Part shown: piece by piece, positions 11,001-43,522 of the stretch | Numbering within the stretch: the stretch's first letter is position 1 | Layout: every line of letters starts with the position of its first letter | Assembly: GCA_001442985.1 (NCBI GenBank) | Contig: LDYB01000019.1 | Coordinates: 310,001-374,000 of the forward strand | Direction of reading: 5' to 3' | Source: Armatimonadetes bacterium DC | GTDB lineage: Bacteria > Armatimonadota > Fimbriimonadia > Fimbriimonadales > GBS-DC | Length of the DNA: 64,000 nt | Translations under genes and position numbers: made by a program | Notes under the pieces: generated by a model | The model's database searches: none | The model's input: only the letters and a program-made list of their open reading frames with translations | Told to the model about the DNA's origin: nothing

Positions 11001-12565
11001 CCGAATCGCCCGCGCTCACCCTCTCCGCAACCGTGCAGAATCTGGAGTACGAAGGCTATCAGGTAGACCAGATTCTGTTCAGCCAGGTGGATGTGGTGGA
11101 GGGGCGCATCGAGACGGGCGACGCGCTGATACGGGTCAAAGACTATCAGGCGCGCTTGTCGGGCACAATCCCCTTCCGCTGGTCGCCGCTGGAGATACCT
11201 CGCGAGGAGCCGCTCGCGGTTGAAGTGCGCCTGACCGACCAGCCTCTGCGCCTGCTGGAACTGTTCGCGCCGATTGACGCCGAGCGCACAGAAGGCATCC
11301 TGAACGCGCGCCTGCGCCTCGAAGGCACGCTGGAGAACCTGCAGCCGCGTGGAACCCTCTCTGTTGAAAACGGCGCGGTGGGGCTGGAGGCGTTCCAGAC
11401 GGCGCTGCAGGCAATCGGGCTACAGGTGGAATTTGACGGCTCGCAGGCGCGGATTCTGCAGGCGTCGGCGCAATCCTCGCAGGGCGGGAGCATCAGCCTC
11501 AGCGGCACCGTAGACTTCACCGCCGAGAAACCCACGCTCGCGCTGAACGGCACGCTGGACAACTTCACGCTCAGGGAACCCAAACTCCCGTTCGGGGGGA
11601 GCGCCGAGGGCACGGTCCGCGGGGAGTTCTCGCTAAGCGGAGAAGCAAACGCGCCGCTGCTTCAGGCGCGATTGCAGGTGCCGCGCGGCGTGCTGAACCT
11701 GCCTGCCGAGTTCACCCCCTCGGAGACGGGCGCGCCGTTGCCCCTCAATCCCAAACTGGATGTGCGCGTGGCGGTTGCAGAGGGCTTTACCCTGCGTAAC
11801 CCCAATCTGGACGCCCGCATGGAGGGCGAGCTGAACCTGACGGGCACGCTGGAAGCGCTGGAGATGAACGGCGTGTTCCGCATGCCCGGCGGCGTGCTGA
11901 ACCTGCCCACCGCCCGACTGCGGATTGAACCCGACAGCCTCGTAACGGTGCGGTACCCCTACACCCTGCCGACGGGTGAGACGATTGCGCGGATTAACCT
12001 CGATGTGCGGGCGAACACCAGTGTGGTTGCCCCTGACCTCACGGGCGACCCCATCCGCTATCGCGTGGAGGTGGATGTGCGTGGTCCGCTGGATGACCCC
12101 GAACGGCTCCAGCTCACGGCGCGCTCCGACCCGCCATGGCTCTCGGAGCAGCGCATCCTGACCCTGCTGGGGCGCGGCACGGCGCTCTCCGCCCTTGCCC
12201 GCGGCGAAGACCCCAGCAAAGTCTTCCGCGAGCAACTGAGCGACATCCTCACTGCGCAGGTGCTGCCAACCCTCTTCTCCCCGCTGGAAGCCCAGATTGC
12301 CGAAGCGTTTGACCTGGAGCAGTTCGCGGTGGACTATTCAGGGCTGCGCCCCGCCAGCGTCTATCTGGTCAAGAACCTCTTTGACGGCGTGGGCATCGCC
12401 TACCGTCGGAGCCTGATGCTGAGCCAGCAGCCGATGTACGAGGTGCGCCTCTTCTACCGCCTGCCGTTCCGCAATCGGCTCCTCCAGCGCATGCGCATAG
12501 GCGTCGGCTTTGACCAGGCGCAGACCCGTTTCGTGTTTATTGAGGGCACAGTGTTGTTTAAGTGA
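8027..12565 (+). CDS. tamB: TamB-type translocation/assembly module protein (AsmA-like, DUF490)
   Basis: The 1512-residue protein has one N-terminal membrane helix (about 12-35) and then a very long repetitive beta structure. Recurrent patterns such as 'GTL..P.L.L...' and 'A.G.....G.L.L.G....' fit a lipid-conducting or chaperone groove spanning the periplasm. The last ~350 residues match the TamB domain: PRGVLNLPAEF, RMPGGVLNLPTARLRI, LLGRGTALSAL, then the terminal barrel-interaction strand KNLFDGVGIAYRRSL and FVFIEGTVLFK. TamB links inner and outer membranes, so the cell should be diderm. The GTG start lies inside lipA; no TamA/BamA partner is in the window. The stop codon overlaps the next start. 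Confidence 0.88.
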   Translation: MRWILNRLHWAFWRLVLVALPVGLILLAGAMYLWQVKLAVEESLPAVIRDYARRQAELEVSVGRVRLTLRSAELWNLQVRTLTGDTLLETRYLRVQYPSGEAPLRLTAERPQAWLQRDRQGRWNIEPLLRRPPPEEPTRLHLLFNATDGTLHFEDLYPETPVRETIQIRTLRIIQPLQSALIRAEGASPRLGAFHLEALTDGRRWLVNLNAPQMEAAWLQAYLPASDLAARQIKASLALQLGYEPEKPLWLVGFAEGVAQSITFRQKPVPFPEARFTLNFTESLLAGSIRAEGATQLALLGKVDWSRTPIAIAGQLQLAGSDAQSLWRLFSNEPPPVAGAYRVEARFGNTLESPLVSAQVHLAEARTPRGKLRQIRFPLFLKGKEAWLPQVEALYEGRPVHARLYANLAGKQPEFRLYAAVEDFPVNLITELKQYPLTAKARGEMVGWGTLEAPHLEANLTSDRVMYNGTPLGTLRARLRYENRQIDIPLGVLQGALGTLQLTGTVALTGEKPRLDLALNAHAVDLNRIAQMLGYSEGALVQDEEGKPLRLDGIGYATLQVRGTPDAPEAIAEFAVFDGRLGDIGAEITAGTLTFADNTLLIPELRILRRSAQMVASGSIELPEKPDQAPYFVFSANATDLDLKLLTDWTRLEMPLAGVASAKLTAEGTPQRFMVEGEFNAQKAQVDRVIVQQAQARMRYEQAPDGRRLRLEEGRAQIGEGTLQAQGSWQSDGTIQAEWQLENLPLREVAAYLPPEYLLQGALSARGQIQSTLENPEAQVELWSSPLELNRVAVGTLEGTLLWHSSQNLWANLRWSLPEGEIALRDLRYSPETQQIVGTGEARDVPVQWLHRLAQALPIELPAEALTRTENFSGVLNLALNLGGTLDAPALALDAQLGALQWNEQSLGTLTLKGEWQGAVDETLRTREVRLERVRWLAENTRLEGSALWTPDNLQADLEISQFPLHWARLWDPALPEIKGTVDISLLASGAPESPALTLSATVQNLEYEGYQVDQILFSQVDVVEGRIETGDALIRVKDYQARLSGTIPFRWSPLEIPREEPLAVEVRLTDQPLRLLELFAPIDAERTEGILNARLRLEGTLENLQPRGTLSVENGAVGLEAFQTALQAIGLQVEFDGSQARILQASAQSSQGGSISLSGTVDFTAEKPTLALNGTLDNFTLREPKLPFGGSAEGTVRGEFSLSGEANAPLLQARLQVPRGVLNLPAEFTPSETGAPLPLNPKLDVRVAVAEGFTLRNPNLDARMEGELNLTGTLEALEMNGVFRMPGGVLNLPTARLRIEPDSLVTVRYPYTLPTGETIARINLDVRANTSVVAPDLTGDPIRYRVEVDVRGPLDDPERLQLTARSDPPWLSEQRILTLLGRGTALSALARGEDPSKVFREQLSDILTAQVLPTLFSPLEAQIAEAFDLEQFAVDYSGLRPASVYLVKNLFDGVGIAYRRSLMLSQQPMYEVRLFYRLPFRNRLLQRMRIGVGFDQAQTRFVFIEGTVLFK

Positions 12566-13203
12566 GCGGACAGCCCGAGTGTAGTTTTGACAGGTCTGAT
12601 ATTCGCTGGGAACAGGGCGACTTGGGATTCAGATATAGCCTAGCTTATGGCGTTTCGGCGGACGGCTCGGTGGTTGTTGGTCGGGCAGACAACGCCAGCG
12701 GTTATTATCGCCCCTTTCGCTGGACGCAGGCTGAAGGGATGCAAGACCTCGGCACGCTCGGCGGCTCCCAGAGCGCGGCTTATGATGTTTCGGCGGACGG
12801 TAATGTGATTGTCGGTCAGGCAGAGAACGACGGCTATCAATGGCGCCCCTTTCGCTGGACGCCAGCGGGCGGGGTGGAAGACCTGAACCAGACCTACGCC
12901 AGCCTGCTCACAGGCGGCTCGGAGCTGTGGGAAGCCCACGCCATCAGCCCCGACGGGCGGTACATCGTGGGATTTGGCTACAACGCGGCGACAGACCGCG
13001 ACGAGGCGTTCTTGCTGGATACCTGGCGCACGGGCGACACCAACGGCGACGGCTGTATTGACGACGCCGACCTGCTTGCCGTGCTGTTCGCGTTCGGCAC
13101 GCCGGGCTCTGGTCTCACCTGCCACGAAGACATCAACAAGGACGGCGTTGTGGACGACGCGGACTTGCTGACGGTGTTGTTCAACTTTGGGAGTGGGTGT
13201 TAG
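12562..13203 (+). CDS. 5'-truncated HAF-repeat protein with dockerin-like C-terminus
   Basis: The 213-residue frame opens at a GTG overlapping the tamB stop (GTGA), with an in-frame TAA directly before it. It holds HAF-type repeats (SLAYGVSADGSVVVG, LGTLGGSQSAAYDVSADG) normally found in exported beta-propeller-like proteins, yet it has no signal peptide and enters the repeat partway. It ends in a double EF-hand: GDTNGDGCIDDADLLAVLF, a linker with an extra Cys, then [14 protein letters not shown] and a terminal FGSGC. I read it as the surviving 3' part of a secreted protein gene fused by deletion to the end of tamB. It may still be translated by coupling, but the product would probably stay in the cytoplasm. 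Confidence 0.65.
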   Translation: MSGQPECSFDRSDIRWEQGDLGFRYSLAYGVSADGSVVVGRADNASGYYRPFRWTQAEGMQDLGTLGGSQSAAYDVSADGNVIVGQAENDGYQWRPFRWTPAGGVEDLNQTYASLLTGGSELWEAHAISPDGRYIVGFGYNAATDRDEAFLLDTWRTGDTNGDGCIDDADLLAVLFAFGTPGSGLTCHEDINKDGVVDDADLLTVLFNFGSGC

Positions 13204-23900: not shown

Positions 23901-24725
23901 ATGAGAACGAGTGTGTTTGGATTGGTAGCGTTGCTGATGGCGTCGTCGGGCGCGCAGTCGGTGTTTCAAGCCGCCCCGACCGATGATGTGTGGTACTACG
24001 ATCATGCATTCAATCCGGGTTTCACTTCTATCCTGCGTGTATGGGGCACGCAACAGCACGCAGTAGACCCCACGGGCGCGCCCCCTGCCCTGAACTACTC
24101 TTATTCGCTGGCGAAGTGGGATGTGTCGGGCATCCGCGCGGGGGTAACCTATCAGGTGCTTTCCGCCGAGATTCGGGTAGTGCAGACCGCGCCGCCGGGC
24201 TACACCCAGCAGGAGGGCGAACAGTTCCCGCTGGAGGCACGCACGCTCACTCGCTCCGACTTCAGCGAACAAACCTGGAACTATAGCGACCCCAATAACC
24301 CCTACCCCACCGAGACCTTGCTCGGTGTCAGCACGATGGAGTTTTACAATCCGAATGGGACTTTCGTCATCCCGATTCGGCTTGACCCTGTGGCGTTCGA
24401 GCCGTACTTTAACGAAGCGGTGAACGGTTCTGGGGCGCTGGGGATTGGCTTCGTCTCACGCATGGATCCTGGCGCTCAGGGCGGCACGCGCTTCTATCGC
24501 TTCTATTCCCGCAACGATGCAGGCGGTCGGGGTCCTGTGCTGGAAGTGCGCTATCGCGTGGCAGGCGATGTGAACGGCGACGGGTGCGTGGACGATGCCG
24601 ACCTGCTGACCGCGCTCTTCCAGTTCGGCGCTACGGGCGAGTCGCCCGCCGACCTGAACGGGGACGGCGTGGTGGACGACGCTGACCTGCTGACCGTGCT
24701 GTTCCACTTCGGCAATGGCTGCTGA
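23901..24725 (+). CDS. Exported DNRLRE-like protein with dockerin-like C-terminus
   Basis: The 274-residue protein has a signal peptide ([20 protein letters not shown]). A beta-sandwich follows that resembles DNRLRE/CBM96-type domains: [16 protein letters not shown], then [10 protein letters not shown] and DFSEQTWNY. This kind of fold is used for carbohydrate binding or as a spacer on cell-surface proteins. The last ~52 residues are two EF-hand loops, [14 protein letters not shown] and [14 protein letters not shown], each followed by LF-x-FG and closing with FGNGC. AAGGAGG precedes ATG 23901. The partner of the EF-hand tail is unknown. Confidence 0.78.
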
Positions 24726-29471: not shown

Positions 29472-29561
29472 AAGCACAGGCTCCCTCCCCTTAACCCACC
29501 CTTAACCCACACATCGGGTATCCTCTTCATGGGCGCTATGCCCGAAAGGAGGTTATGCCCT

Positions 29562-30692
29562 ATGAGAAACTGGATGGTTTTGGGATTGACCGCAGCGCTG
29601 GTCGCTTCGCTGTCTGCCCAGGTCGTGCTGGGCGACGGCAAGGGCAAGGTGCGTGCAGTGAACGCGCTTGCTCAAATCGCGGCTACAGAGAACTTGCTTG
29701 AATGGAGCCGACGCGATTTTCAAGATGCAGCCAACTTCTCCAGCTTCGGCTTTTGGCCTGGCTACACTATTCAGGTGGCGCAAGACCTGTTCGACGCGCT
29801 GGGGAATCAGGTTGGCTTCGGCGACAGTACGAACCCCGTGTCCATTACCACCGTTGACTCGCTGGTGACGGCAGGGTGGCCGAGCTCGTTCTCCGTACCC
29901 GAATCGCTGTTTCGCCAGGGCGGTGCCTACACGAACAACAGCCTGAACGGCGACCACAACCCCATCGGCGCGGTCTGGATTAAGTATGAACTGGACGATT
30001 CCAACCCCGACGGCTGGAATGTGCGCAAGGTGCAAATCTTCGCATGGGATGTGCGCGACCTGATTCACAAATCGTCTGGCACCAAAACCCGCCCCTTCTC
30101 CGACACTGCCGCGCCGTACCGAATCGATGTGTATGTCGCCAGCAACGACCCGAACCCTGCCTCAGACCCCACCACCGACTCCAACTGGACTTTCGTGGGC
30201 ACGCTGAGCAAAGCGAACGGCACACTGCCGAATGTCTGCCAGTGGGACCCGAACACAGGCAACACCTTCGGTGAGTGCCCGCAGGCAACGCTGGACTACC
30301 TGAGCGGCAACAACCCTCTGGGAATCGCGTTCTATCAAGACCCCACCAACGAAATCTGGTACTCCACGCTCACCGTTTCGGGTCAGAGCGGCATCAAATA
30401 TGTCGCACTGGTGATTCCGGAAGGCAACCAGTATGGTAAAGACCCCACCCTCAACGCCAGCAGCCGCACCAGCTCCAGCCTGCGCTACACCAACATTACC
30501 GATGTGCGCGTGGTTGCAGGCGTCGAGGGCGATGTGAACGGCGACGGGTGCGTGGACGATGCCGACCTGCTCGCTGTGCTGTTCGCCTTTGGGCAGACGG
30601 GTTCAGGCTTGCCTGAAGATGTGAACAGCGACGGCGTGGTGGACGACGCTGACTTGCTTGCTGTGCTGTTTGCTTTCGGCACAGGTTGCTAA
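29562..30692 (+). CDS. Exported protein with dockerin-like C-terminus
   Basis: The 376-residue protein has a signal peptide (MRNWMVLGLTAALVASLSAQ) and a large domain I do not recognise. That domain is rich in Asn, Asp and aromatic residues (FSSFGFWPGYTIQVAQDLFD, WIKYELDDSNPDGWNVRKVQ, IRYVAL-like strands near the end) and looks like an all-beta extracellular module. It ends in a tandem EF-hand pair, [20 protein letters not shown] and [20 protein letters not shown], closing with FGTGC. AGGAGG sits ten bases before ATG 29562; a -10-like TATCCT lies at 29519-29524. An in-frame ATG at 29529 lies too close to that box to be used. Confidence 0.75.
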   Translation: MRNWMVLGLTAALVASLSAQVVLGDGKGKVRAVNALAQIAATENLLEWSRRDFQDAANFSSFGFWPGYTIQVAQDLFDALGNQVGFGDSTNPVSITTVDSLVTAGWPSSFSVPESLFRQGGAYTNNSLNGDHNPIGAVWIKYELDDSNPDGWNVRKVQIFAWDVRDLIHKSSGTKTRPFSDTAAPYRIDVYVASNDPNPASDPTTDSNWTFVGTLSKANGTLPNVCQWDPNTGNTFGECPQATLDYLSGNNPLGIAFYQDPTNEIWYSTLTVSGQSGIKYVALVIPEGNQYGKDPTLNASSRTSSSLRYTNITDVRVVAGVEGDVNGDGCVDDADLLAVLFAFGQTGSGLPEDVNSDGVVDDADLLAVLFAFGTGC

Positions 30693-39947: not shown

Positions 39948-39953
39948 TATAAT
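39948..39953 (+). promoter_or_regulatory. -10 box with a ~100-base leader for the exported cassette
   Basis: GTGTATAAT predicts a start near 39960, giving a leader of about 100 bases to ATG 40060, much longer than elsewhere in the window. The leader contains two near copies of GCCAGCCA separated by CATCGGCA. I recognise no riboswitch in it. Confidence 0.5.
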
Positions 39954-40059
39954 AGAGTATCGGCGCCACCGAAAGATAGAGATAACCTGGTCGCCAGCCA
40001 CATCGGCAGCCAGCCATTTCCTCTCTCGACCGCTGAAATTCCTTGAAGGAGGCTATGCA

Positions 40060-41499
40060 ATGCGCAGTGTGTTCTGCAGTTTGGCTTTAGCCGTGTCGCT
40101 GGCGCTTGGGTGCGCCCAACCGTTCACCTATCAGGGGTCGCTCAGAGACGGCGGCAACCCTGCGAATGGCAACTATCAGATGACTTTTCGGCTCTATAAC
40201 GCCGCCGCTGGCGGTACGCTGTTGGGTACGGTGGGTCCCGTTGCCGTACCTGTGAGCAACGGTTTGTTCAGTGTAGAGCTGAATTTCCCTGCTTCGATCT
40301 GGGATGGTGGAACCCGCTACCTGGAGATCCAGGTCGGCGCCACGACCCTTTCGCCCCGTGTGAAGATTAACCCAACGCCCTATGCCAGTACTTTACGCCT
40401 GTTTGAAAGTGGTGTTTCGAATCCTGATCGAATGGTGATTGCCCACTCGCCCGCTTTCACGAACTGGGGTCTGATGTATCGGGATACTACCGATGAGTTC
40501 CATTTTATGGGGAGCGGTAGCAGCAGCCTTTCTGTGCGTCTCCTGGATGGGGACATGAGTTTCTACGACGATCAGGGAAGCATTATCTTCTCCACAGCGG
40601 ATGCCACCAACGCGCCGATGATGATGATGTTCAGCTCGGGTGCCAACAACGCCGACCGCATGGTGATTGCCCATTCGCCCGCTTTCACGAACTGGGGCTT
40701 ACAGTATCGTGACTCGGACGATAAGTTCAACTTCATGGGTGGCGGTCTCACGGCGATGAGTATCGATCTGGCGAATCTCTATGTAGGCGTGCGCACCTTT
40801 GTGCCCGAAGTGCCGCTCCATGTCGCCAGCGGCACCGACAGCTCCCCCAGCGGCGGCGGTTTTGTTCAGATAGGGCTGACCTCGGGGGCGAACCTCAGCA
40901 TGGACAGCAACGAGATTATGGCGCGCAATAATGGGGCAGCCGCCACCCTCTCTTTGAACCACAACGGTGGTGATGTGATTATCAACGGCACCAACGCCGC
41001 GGGCAATGTGGGCATCGGCACGACCAGCCCTGCCGCCAAACTGCATGTGAACGGCACGGCGCGCGTGAGGGTGCTGGAAATCACGGGCGCCGATTTCGCC
41101 GAAAAGTTCCCCACCACTGAACCCGTCCAACCCGGCATGGTCGTCGAGATTGACCCCGACAACCCCGGCAACCTCCGCCTCGCACGCGGCGCCTATAACA
41201 AGCGCGTGGCAGGCATCGTCGCGGGCGCAAACGGGTTGTCCAAAGGCATCGTGCTGGGCAACACCGAAGGCAGTGAAAACCACACCCCCATCGCCATCAG
41301 CGGGCGCGTGTGGGTCTACGCCGACGCTGCCGAACACGCGATTGAACCCGGCGACTTCCTGACCACGGCGGAGCGCGCGGGCTACGCGATGAAGGCGACC
41401 GACCTGCAAAAAGCACAGGGTGCGATTCTGGGCAAGGCGATGACCCGCCTTGAGCAGGGTAAGACGGGCTTTGTGCTGGTGCTGGTCAATCTGCAGTAA
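40060..41499 (+). CDS. Exported fibre-like protein with internal repeat and G2-peptidase-like C-terminus
   Basis: The 479-residue protein has a signal peptide (MRSVFCSLALAVSLALGCAQ; Cys18 is a weak lipobox). A beta-sandwich follows (FTYQGSLRDGGNPANGNYQM to SPRVKINPTPYA), as found in many exported proteins of this type. A 29-residue repeat occurs twice (123-151 and 199-227; DRMVIAHSPAFTNWGL, YRD, FMG), then a tail-fibre-like hinge (NVGIGTTSPAAKLHVNGTA). The last ~140 residues (ADFAEKFPTTEPVQPGMVVE to the end) recall the autoproteolytic/trimer-forming C-termini of phage tail fibres (peptidase G2-like). AAGGAGG precedes ATG 40060. A metalloprotease gene follows 13 bases downstream. Confidence 0.6.
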   Translation: MRSVFCSLALAVSLALGCAQPFTYQGSLRDGGNPANGNYQMTFRLYNAAAGGTLLGTVGPVAVPVSNGLFSVELNFPASIWDGGTRYLEIQVGATTLSPRVKINPTPYASTLRLFESGVSNPDRMVIAHSPAFTNWGLMYRDTTDEFHFMGSGSSSLSVRLLDGDMSFYDDQGSIIFSTADATNAPMMMMFSSGANNADRMVIAHSPAFTNWGLQYRDSDDKFNFMGGGLTAMSIDLANLYVGVRTFVPEVPLHVASGTDSSPSGGGFVQIGLTSGANLSMDSNEIMARNNGAAATLSLNHNGGDVIINGTNAAGNVGIGTTSPAAKLHVNGTARVRVLEITGADFAEKFPTTEPVQPGMVVEIDPDNPGNLRLARGAYNKRVAGIVAGANGLSKGIVLGNTEGSENHTPIAISGRVWVYADAAEHAIEPGDFLTTAERAGYAMKATDLQKAQGAILGKAMTRLEQGKTGFVLVLVNLQ

Positions 41500-41512
41500 G
41501 GAGGCAACCGCC

Positions 41513-43009
41513 ATGAAAACACCCAGAGGATTTTGGGCGGTTGTGGTCTTCAGCACGCTCTGGCTGGGCGGGCAGACGCAATCGGCTGCCCCATCCCTCT
41601 TTACGCCAGTGAAGGCGACCGTGCCTGCAGACGCCCCTGCGTTGCGCAACGCACAAGCCTACCAGCCTGTGCGCATCCGCTGGCAGGTGGTGCAGAGTCT
41701 GCAACCGGGCAGCCGCGTGCTGTTCAACCTGCTGGAAGGGGTCAACCCGATAGGCGTGGTGGAGCGTGTGGAGCGGCGGGATGAGCAGCGCTACTCCTGC
41801 TTCGGACGCCTGGAGGGGCTGGATGGCAGCCACTTTATTCTGGTGGTAGAGGAAGACGCGCTTGCATTATTCGTTTCCACGCCGATGTACGGGGCGGTGT
41901 TTGACCTGCGCTATTACAAAGACGACCTGTATGTGGTGGTGCAGGTTGGCGAGGAGCCGCCCTGCGGGAATCAGGAGAACGAGACGCCGCCGCCGTTTGA
42001 GATGACACCCGAAGACGCCGAGTGGCACGCCCGCTTTGCCAATCAGGATATTGAGATGGCAGGGGACGATGATTTCGGCACGGCTGCCTGCACACAGCCG
42101 CGAGCCGTGCTGGACATCGCCGTGTACTACACCACGCAGGCGCGTCAGGCGATTGGTGGGGTCAACCAGATGAACGCGCGCATCCAGTTGTTTATCGACC
42201 AGTGCAACGAAGCCTACCAGAACAGTCAGGTCAGCTTGACGGCGCGTTTAGTGCGGCGGCTGGAAGTGAACTATCCTGGCGAAGGGAACGGAGACAGCGG
42301 CACGCAGCTGAGTCACCTGACCGATCCCAACGACGGCGTAATGGACGGTATTCACGCCGATCGCACCAACTTTCGTGCCGATCAGGTCATCCTGCTATTG
42401 AACAGCATGGATGCCTGCGGGCGCGCATGGTGCGGGGATGGCAGCGACCCGGAACGCGCGTTTGGCGTGGTTCAGTACACCTGCACAACCTACACCTTCC
42501 CACACGAGATTGGGCACAACCAAGGCTGTGGGCACGACCGGGATAATGGCGGGTGTGATTTCCGTTCGTACGGGTTCGGCTGGCGGTTCAACGGCAACGA
42601 TGGCGTGCAGTACCGTACAGTGATGGCGTATGCGCCCGGTACCCGCATTCCCTACTTCTCGAACCCGGATGTGACCTATCAGGGCGTGCCGACGGGTGTG
42701 CCGATAGGACAGCCTAATGAAGCGCATAACGCGATGGTGATTACCGAGACTCGGCGGTCGCGCGAGCTCTACCGCCTGCTGGACATCTGGGTGGACTTCA
42801 GCGCAGGTTTTATCGAGCTGGGCACCTTCAGCTTCCCCTATAATACGGTGATCGAGGGGGCGAACGCGATAACGACCTCTGTGGACACGGCGGTGCTGGA
42901 CTTCCCGACGCTCTATATCAAGGCGGGTTCGCGTACCGAAGGCATCACTATCAGCAAGCGGATGCGCCTTGAGGCGTGCGGTGGGCTGGTACGGATCAGC
43001 GCGCCGTGA
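41513..43009 (+). CDS. Secreted reprolysin-like zinc metalloprotease
   Basis: The 498-residue protein has a signal peptide (residues 1-25), a propeptide-like N-terminal beta region (to ~190), then a metzincin catalytic domain: AVLDIAVYYTTQARQAIGG, FIDQCNEAYQNSQV, zinc site HEIGHNQGCGHD (331-342) and a Met-turn VMAYAPG (370-376). Cysteines around the domain (Cys193, 231, 302, 307, 324, 339, 348) suggest disulfides. The consensus HExxHNxGxxHD places it with M12B/reprolysin-like peptidases. A ~80-residue C-terminal extension ends it. AAGGAGG at the stop of the fibre-like gene drives its start, so both are co-expressed. It could mature or shed the neighbouring exported proteins. Confidence 0.85.
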   Translation: MKTPRGFWAVVVFSTLWLGGQTQSAAPSLFTPVKATVPADAPALRNAQAYQPVRIRWQVVQSLQPGSRVLFNLLEGVNPIGVVERVERRDEQRYSCFGRLEGLDGSHFILVVEEDALALFVSTPMYGAVFDLRYYKDDLYVVVQVGEEPPCGNQENETPPPFEMTPEDAEWHARFANQDIEMAGDDDFGTAACTQPRAVLDIAVYYTTQARQAIGGVNQMNARIQLFIDQCNEAYQNSQVSLTARLVRRLEVNYPGEGNGDSGTQLSHLTDPNDGVMDGIHADRTNFRADQVILLLNSMDACGRAWCGDGSDPERAFGVVQYTCTTYTFPHEIGHNQGCGHDRDNGGCDFRSYGFGWRFNGNDGVQYRTVMAYAPGTRIPYFSNPDVTYQGVPTGVPIGQPNEAHNAMVITETRRSRELYRLLDIWVDFSAGFIELGTFSFPYNTVIEGANAITTSVDTAVLDFPTLYIKAGSRTEGITISKRMRLEACGGLVRISAP

Positions 43010-43025
43010 CGCCCTCACCCCTGCC

Positions 43026-43089
43026 CCCTCTCCCACGCTGCGGGAGAGGGAGGGGACACCCACCTTCCCCCCTGCTTGCGGGGGGAGGG
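43026..43089. repeat. Two GC-rich hairpins between the metalloprotease and dockerin-like genes
   Basis: Hairpin 1 is CCCTCTCCC / GGGAGAGGG (43026-43050, seven-base loop). Hairpin 2 is CCTTCCCCCC / GGGGGGAGGG (43063-43089, seven-base loop, one G-U). No T-run follows. The sequence resembles the stem at 13233 and the one at 43533, so this looks like a small family of CCCTCTCCC-type intergenic hairpins. Confidence 0.55.
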
Positions 43090-43117
43090 CACAACGAAAC
43101 GATGGAGGCAAACAACG

Positions 43118-43522
43118 ATGAGAACAGTGACGATGTGCGCGATTCTTGCGACCCTGATGGGCGTCGCCAACGCCCAATCGGGCGGCAACTACGATCTCAG
43201 CTGGTGGACGATTGATGGCGGCGGCATCACCTTCGCCACCGGCGGCACTTTCAACTTGGGCGGCACCGTCGGTCAGCCCGATGCCAGCAACCCCCTCACA
43301 GGGGGCAGTTTCAGCCTCACGGGCGGCTTCTGGGTCGCCCCTGCCTGCATCCCCACGAATGGCGACGCCGACGGCAGCGGTTGCGTGGACGACGCTGACC
43401 TGTTGACGGTGCTGTTCGCCTTCGGCGCAACGGGCGCCAACCCCGCCGATGTGAACTGCGACGCCACCGTCGACGACGCTGACCTGCTGGTGGTGCTGTT
43501 CAACTTCGGCAGTGGGTGTTGA
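43118..43522 (+). CDS. Small exported protein with dockerin-like C-terminus
   Basis: The 134-residue protein has a signal peptide (MRTVTMCAILATLMGVANAQ). A short beta motif follows, YDLSWWTIDGGGITFATGG then FNLGGTVGQPDA and GGSFSLTGGFW, a pattern common in surface proteins of environmental bacteria. The last ~55 residues are the tandem EF-hand ([40 protein letters not shown]) ending FGSGC. The second loop is slightly degenerate (DATV instead of DGVV). GGAGG precedes ATG 43118. It follows the protease gene by 108 bases containing two hairpins, so it may be separately expressed. Confidence 0.75.
   Translation: MRTVTMCAILATLMGVANAQSGGNYDLSWWTIDGGGITFATGGTFNLGGTVGQPDASNPLTGGSFSLTGGFWVAPACIPTNGDADGSGCVDDADLLTVLFAFGATGANPADVNCDATVDDADLLVVLFNFGSGC

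Follow-up and report, generated by a model that had tools for sequence, protein, structure and literature searches.

A cassette of three genes at positions 39948-43522 of a 64,000-nucleotide stretch of Armatimonadetes bacterium DC (contig LDYB01000019.1, positions 310,001 to 374,000; hereafter the window) encodes an exported fibre-like protein, a secreted metzincin protease and a small exported protein with a dockerin-like tail. The fibre would be the scaffold of this set, and a C-terminal tail of the protease would dock the enzyme on the fibre or sort it there, a reading whose probability we put at about one in two, the docking being the part that we infer. It is carried by features that computation brought out directly: the gene order, the match between the C-terminal domain of the fibre (fibC) and the fold of phage phi29 gp12, the exchange of enzyme folds in the position behind fibC (the slot), a tail that unrelated enzymes of that slot have in common and that is seldom met elsewhere, and the tracking of fibC by this tail.

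All three genes are intact and lie on the forward strand, each with a ribosome-binding site before it and a signal-peptide-like N-terminus in its product. Gene 1 (40060-41499, 479 amino acids) codes for an exported fibre-like protein of MAT-like architecture, with signal peptide, N-terminal domain (fibN), variable shaft and fibC; gene 2 (41513-43009, 498 amino acids), for a secreted reprolysin-like metzincin zymogen, follows after a gap of 13 bases; and gene 3 (43118-43522, 134 amino acids), starting at the ATG at 43118 with its ribosome-binding site ahead, codes for a short g3N domain and a dockerin-like tail. The exported set and the 13-base spacing given in a preliminary description of the window, made from the sequence, are therefore borne out. 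The order fibC-fibre, protease, g3 was found in 14 further neighbourhoods, three with a metzincin (L080, L088 and L073, a second copy on contig C11 of the source genome) and eleven with a trypsin-like protease, and one more cassette (L163) has a variant third gene. Because the order recurs across many genomes, the cassette is more than a chance grouping; the preliminary description had staked its proposal on conservation in relatives, and such conservation exists. The source genome is a 2.85 Mb draft in 26 contigs, 95% complete, and a relative of the same family is Fimbriimonadales bacterium KatS3mg018 (AP024673).

The slot is occupied by enzymes of unrelated folds. Among 291 Armatimonadota genomes searched, fibC occurs in 24, and for 39 of the fibC genes the neighbour on the same strand could be read. 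A peptidase lies directly behind fibC in 32 of these: 22 trypsin-like proteases, six metzincins, three C10 proteases with Spi-like prodomains (inhibitor domains) and one S8 protease. The other neighbours comprise a Vps10-type propeller, a beta-helix protein, F5/8 C, PhoD and FlgD_ig proteins, and unidentified proteins. Behind fibres that have fibN and no fibC, a peptidase (an M23) was found once in 23 cases (32/39 vs 1/23, Fisher p 9e-10, related loci not being independent). Well-supported branches of the fibC tree force at least six switches between metzincin and trypsin-like partners. The fibC of the window itself sits in a trypsin-partnered group and is 93% identical to that of locus L079, behind which a trypsin-like protease is encoded. 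Mean identity is 0.73 for fibC versus 0.46 for the trypsin-like protease. Such repeated replacement of the protease fold in a fixed operon slot amounts to a natural experiment, in which the slot would select activity and tail, not fold. A tandem arrangement was also observed in one relative (L099:3009-11890), with fibC-fibre, trypsin-like protease, fibC-fibre, trypsin-like protease and metzincin in a row and all cargo tailed.

The tail, of about 70 residues (A2/A10; 42791-43006 in gene 2), is the common end of the metzincins, the trypsin-like proteases, a C10 (L167) and an S8 (L170) protease, a propeller (L097) and beta-helix proteins (L165); most of the slot cargo bears it, some non-peptidases included. 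It resembles the first coil of a right-handed beta-helix, and the matches to it in L213, L214, L215 and L218 were set aside as N-terminal coils of ordinary beta-helix proteins, not C-terminal tails. In the source genome only the two fibC-adjacent metzincins carry it. Of the 39 tail matches of 45 bits or more in the 291 genomes, 34 belong to the gene directly downstream of fibC; the five others are an opposite-strand fibC neighbour, a fragment, a match at a contig start (L212), an N-terminal coil (L213) and a metzincin (L103). The match at L212:3-995 is an RCC1-like repeat protein ending in an A2-like tail, possibly a further type of cargo from which fibC has been cut off by the contig end. Pairwise distances between tails follow those between the fibC domains, with a rank correlation of 0.61-0.76 at trypsin-like loci and 0.88 at metzincin loci, above the value of 0.32-0.38 that links the tail to its own catalytic domain; the difference was positive in every leave-one-out run.

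The trypsin-like enzymes are also largely confined to fibC loci when they are searched for by their non-tail part, a reverse test free of any circularity of the tail profile. With that part of the trypsin-like protease as query in 61 genomes, all 22 family members found in the window's own taxonomic family were at fibC loci, 21 of them directly downstream, and a single protein, 27% identical, was found outside that family. Eight of ten metzincin matches lay at fibC loci (one of them a remnant), and L103 and L108 did not. The homologue without fibC at L108:3865-5214 has a dockerin-like tail where the fibC-linked copies have the A2 tail.

Several points weigh against the docking of a tail on fibC. 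The tail profile was trained on fibC neighbours, which makes the confinement count partly circular, and L103 is a tailed metzincin with no fibC nearby. Tail distances follow fibN as well (0.54-0.67), and it could hence be the whole fibre to which the tail is linked. Metzincin and trypsin-type tails are about 30-45% identical and hence partly cargo-specific, and some fibC-adjacent cargo has no tail, namely that of viral-contig loci and the FlgD_ig and F5/8 C proteins. The same pattern would also arise if recombination exchanged the catalytic part alone and left both flanks in place.

Related arrangements occur outside the phylum. In a Planctomycetota locus (L072) fibC is followed by two tailed metzincins, and on a Bacteroidota plasmid (L185) by a trypsin-like protein, apparently degenerate from its residues, with both the tail and a type IX secretion system (T9SS) sorting domain. 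Weak metallopeptidase matches lie near fibC in Paraburkholderia (L177) and Rhodobacteraceae (L184). On viral contigs, L135 encodes an untailed protein recognised by its HEMGHGHGLKD motif, and L134:6457-7788, directly behind the fibC gene, an untailed protein of 444 residues with no Pfam match, which its Cys, His and Asp motifs would make a possible papain/C39-type cysteine protease. Plasmids of Streptomyces, Rhodococcus and Hymenobacter have other fibC neighbours, and therefore the pairing with a peptidase is not universal. We propose, more tentatively than the scaffold role itself, an undescribed docking system in which a gp12-type domain receives a tail of about 70 residues and any enzyme acquiring the tail could be loaded onto the fibre; across Armatimonadota, Planctomycetota and Bacteroidota this system would have served at least four folds of peptidase as well as proteins that are not peptidases.

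The assignment of gene 1 to phage-type fibres comes from several parts of the protein. The tail-fibre-like hinge of the preliminary description agrees with a match of residues 302-338 to phage tail-fibre PHROGs (E 0.0015). The fibN domain (residues 22-109, 40123-40386) is common to other fibre proteins of the source genome, which encodes several further fibN proteins. A Peptidase_S74 domain stands near the C-terminus of two of those tested there and of one in a relative, while Peptidase_S74 (PF13884) has no match in gene 1. Since S74 ends other fibres of the family, fibC (residues 327-479, 41038-41496), which is better conserved than the rest of the fibre, stands in the place of the fibre chaperone. 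No Pfam or NCBIfam profile detects fibC, and its sequence retrieved nothing from the PDB. The G2-peptidase-like C-terminus proposed earlier survives as a fold match and not as a profile match, because Peptidase_G2 (PF11962) finds nothing at E <= 10 anywhere in the source genome, gene 1 included.

The fold match comes from an AlphaFold model built with nine homologues, with a predicted local distance difference test (pLDDT) score of 83-97 in the core and 75 on average. Aligned with VIA-align, the model fits the C-terminal fragment of phi29 gp12 3gqh with Z 12.8 over 114 residues at 20% identity, and 3suc with Z 12.7; the root-mean-square deviation is 3.1-3.3 across both structures, and residues 47-179 of the model lie on gp12 692-854. 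Foldseek links the model to 3gqh weakly (E 0.011). Its best matches are phage head-decoration proteins, and the fold family is for this reason to be regarded as broad, the position of cleavage being what singles out gp12 in the model. Residue 47 of the model, the invariant D345, superposes on gp12 residue 692, and mature phi29 gp12 ends at residue 691 (PMC6542822). By alignment and by superposition, the invariant acidic pair D345-x-A-E348 (41092-41103) falls at the gp12 self-cleavage site, and D-x-[AS]-E is kept in every fibC row that covers the region. Ahead of the invariant D, fibC usually has A, where gp12 has Ser691. Compared with gp12 and Peptidase_G2 (3gqh, 3suc), fibC thus has the same predicted fold and a domain start equivalent to gp12 692, but it has no PF11962 match and is encoded on a bacterial chromosome with a secretion signal. 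A prophage remnant was considered and rejected, fibC having no match in 50,697 phage genomes and few matches in viral contigs.

Gene 2 was correctly called reprolysin-like: it matches Pfam Reprolysin_5 with E 3.9e-18 and 66.8 bits against a cut-off of 27, and has the zinc-binding motif HEIGHNQGCGHD (42503-42538), of the metzincin M12B pattern HExxHxxGxxHD, and a Met-turn VMAY at residues 370-373. Cys151 of the prodomain (41963-41965), invariant in five homologues, is a possible cysteine switch. The AlphaFold model of gene 2 (mean pLDDT 42.6) was too poor and was not used.

Taken together, gene 1 would form a trimeric, phage-tail-fibre-like surface protein in which fibC, with the fold of the gp12 intramolecular chaperone, would be expected to bring about trimerisation and folding of the shaft, with possible self-cleavage between A344 and D345. 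Gene 2 would be the enzyme carried by this fibre, a metzincin zymogen tied to fibres of the fibC type through its C-terminal tail, whether it docks on them or is sorted along with them. At other loci the same slot and tail would carry trypsin-like, C10 or S8 proteases and, more rarely, a propeller or beta-helix protein. The outcome would be a protease outside the cell but retained on its surface, where it probably digests outside protein from prey, mat or biofilm.

Other relations between fibre and protease have to be weighed against this scaffold role. One is that fibC is a dedicated chaperone or inhibitor acting on the protease in trans, in the manner of BamI for Mep72 or CpaB for CpaA, the released domain guarding or folding the enzyme during export. 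The sequence of gene 2 does resemble those of Mep72 and CpaA, both encoded beside a partner gene, and the protease-linked fibC is the part of the fibre most conserved; however, gene 2 has its own prodomain, the C10 partners bring their Spi-like inhibitor domains, cargo that is no enzyme exists, and a single chaperone would hardly suit four or more unrelated folds except by acting on the tail that they share, so that this relation appears unlikely. Somewhat less likely again is co-expression only, in which fibre and secreted protease both contribute to a life-style of surface attachment and protein digestion without touching each other. The short operon spacing would suffice for it, and secreted hydrolases might plausibly cluster with adhesins in that manner, but it leaves unexplained the tail common to unrelated folds, its near-confinement to the slot and its tracking of fibC in preference to its own enzyme, and fibres without fibC have no such partner. 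The processing of the fibre by its neighbour near the ADFAEKF segment, maturing or releasing it, which the preliminary description had favoured, is improbable in spite of the strict adjacency of fibC and protease, because at least four unrelated peptidase folds, of presumably different specificities, stand beside a slowly evolving fibC, because the slot is also taken by propeller and beta-helix proteins that bear this tail, and because ADFAEKF lies at the self-cleavage position of a self-cutting fold, where cleavage would most simply be the work of the domain itself and would not implicate gene 2.

Gene 3 would encode a small protein that binds calcium and serves fibres in general as an accessory or anchor. 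Its g3N domain is followed by two dockerin-like calcium loops and the end GSGC, which agrees with the dockerin tail described earlier, but curated dockerin cut-offs are not reached: NCBIfam dockerin_GC (NF041540) gives 16.3 bits against a cut-off of 29, and PF00404 has no match in gene 3. The g3 gene is also found behind fibres lacking both fibC and protease, at seven loci, and therefore belongs with the fibre and is not specific to the protease. Tails of the gene 3 type occur in at least 69 places of the source genome, and no cohesin (PF00963) was found at E <= 1 in that 95% complete assembly; read from these sequences, the tail is thus a general tag of secreted proteins there and not part of a cellulosome, which was ruled out by the lack of cohesin. 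Dockerin-like tails ending in GC were seen on many secreted proteins, for example at 12562-13200, 23901-24722 and 29529-30689 of the window and in at least 65 other places. On a viral contig (L190:3218-4757), a fibN-fibC gene is followed by a small g3N-like protein that ends in YLPLVLRDS, which suggests a fibre-g3 pair outside Armatimonadota with a different C-terminal signal.

Transcription of the cassette plausibly starts from an operon promoter ahead of gene 1. A perfect TATAAT at 39948-39953 on the forward strand, probably its -10 element, lies about 100 bases before gene 1, and AT-rich TATAAT stretches of similar kind precede the cassettes of L080 and L088. The single promoter with a leader of about 100 bases proposed earlier has therefore its -10 sequence at the right distance but no consensus -35 element, none having passed the scan upstream of gene 1; promoter and terminator consensus scans of the locus gave scores not above those of shuffled sequences. 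Between the protease gene and gene 3 (43010-43095, forward strand) there are one or more G+C-rich stem-loops, strong in each of the nine cassettes inspected (the window, L073, L079, L080, L082, L088, L093, L117 and L128) and conserved in position, not in sequence. With such a strong stem-loop ahead of it, gene 3 may or may not be transcribed together with genes 1 and 2. The stem-loop has no T-run and perhaps serves as an attenuator or a stabiliser of the mRNA.

Descriptions of bacterial fibres with phage-type chaperone domains have only begun to appear, and they treat these fibres as adhesins. Should the second slot of the cassette prove to be where tail-tagged enzymes are loaded, it would represent a new form of enzyme display at the surface, based on a short tag that can move between proteins, and a C-terminal domain now annotated as 'hypothetical protein' in several phyla would acquire a function. 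As the preliminary description had anticipated, no account of the three-protein set was found in the open-access literature, nor one of a fibre paired to exchangeable proteases sharing a tail.

Each of the known systems shares part of this pattern. In Pseudomonas aeruginosa, Mep72 is encoded beside BamI, which binds it (PMC4334185), and in Acinetobacter, CpaA is encoded beside CpaB, which is needed for its export (PMC4713064). Both pairs resemble the cassette in placing a secreted metzincin, similar in sequence to gene 2, beside a partner gene. They differ in that BamI and CpaB are not fibre proteins and in that gene 2 lies far below the model cut-offs, the likeness being limited to the catalytic domain (94.9 bits with the Mep72 equivalog NF052434, over residues 199-408 only, the cut-off of 645 not being reached); exchange of the protease fold is not described in the portions of the two reports drawn on here (PMC4334185, PMC4713064). 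Among bacterial fibres described so far, the MAT fibres of Bdellovibrio bacteriovorus come closest, with a signal peptide, a conserved N-terminal domain, a shaft and a C-terminal chaperone domain; a genome has several paralogues, only part of which end in S74 (PMC10769870). The likeness is one of architecture alone: fibC is gp12-like and not S74, and the available part of that report mentions no neighbouring protease or tailed cargo (PMC10769870). The cohesin-dockerin pair of cellulosomes likewise brings unrelated enzymes to one scaffold by means of a C-terminal tag, and the tail of gene 3 is dockerin-like, but the tag of gene 2 is no dockerin, no cohesin was detected in the source genome and gene 3 stays below the dockerin cut-offs. 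Set beside these systems, the pattern of slot and tail suggests an undescribed mode of enzyme attachment to bacterial fibres.

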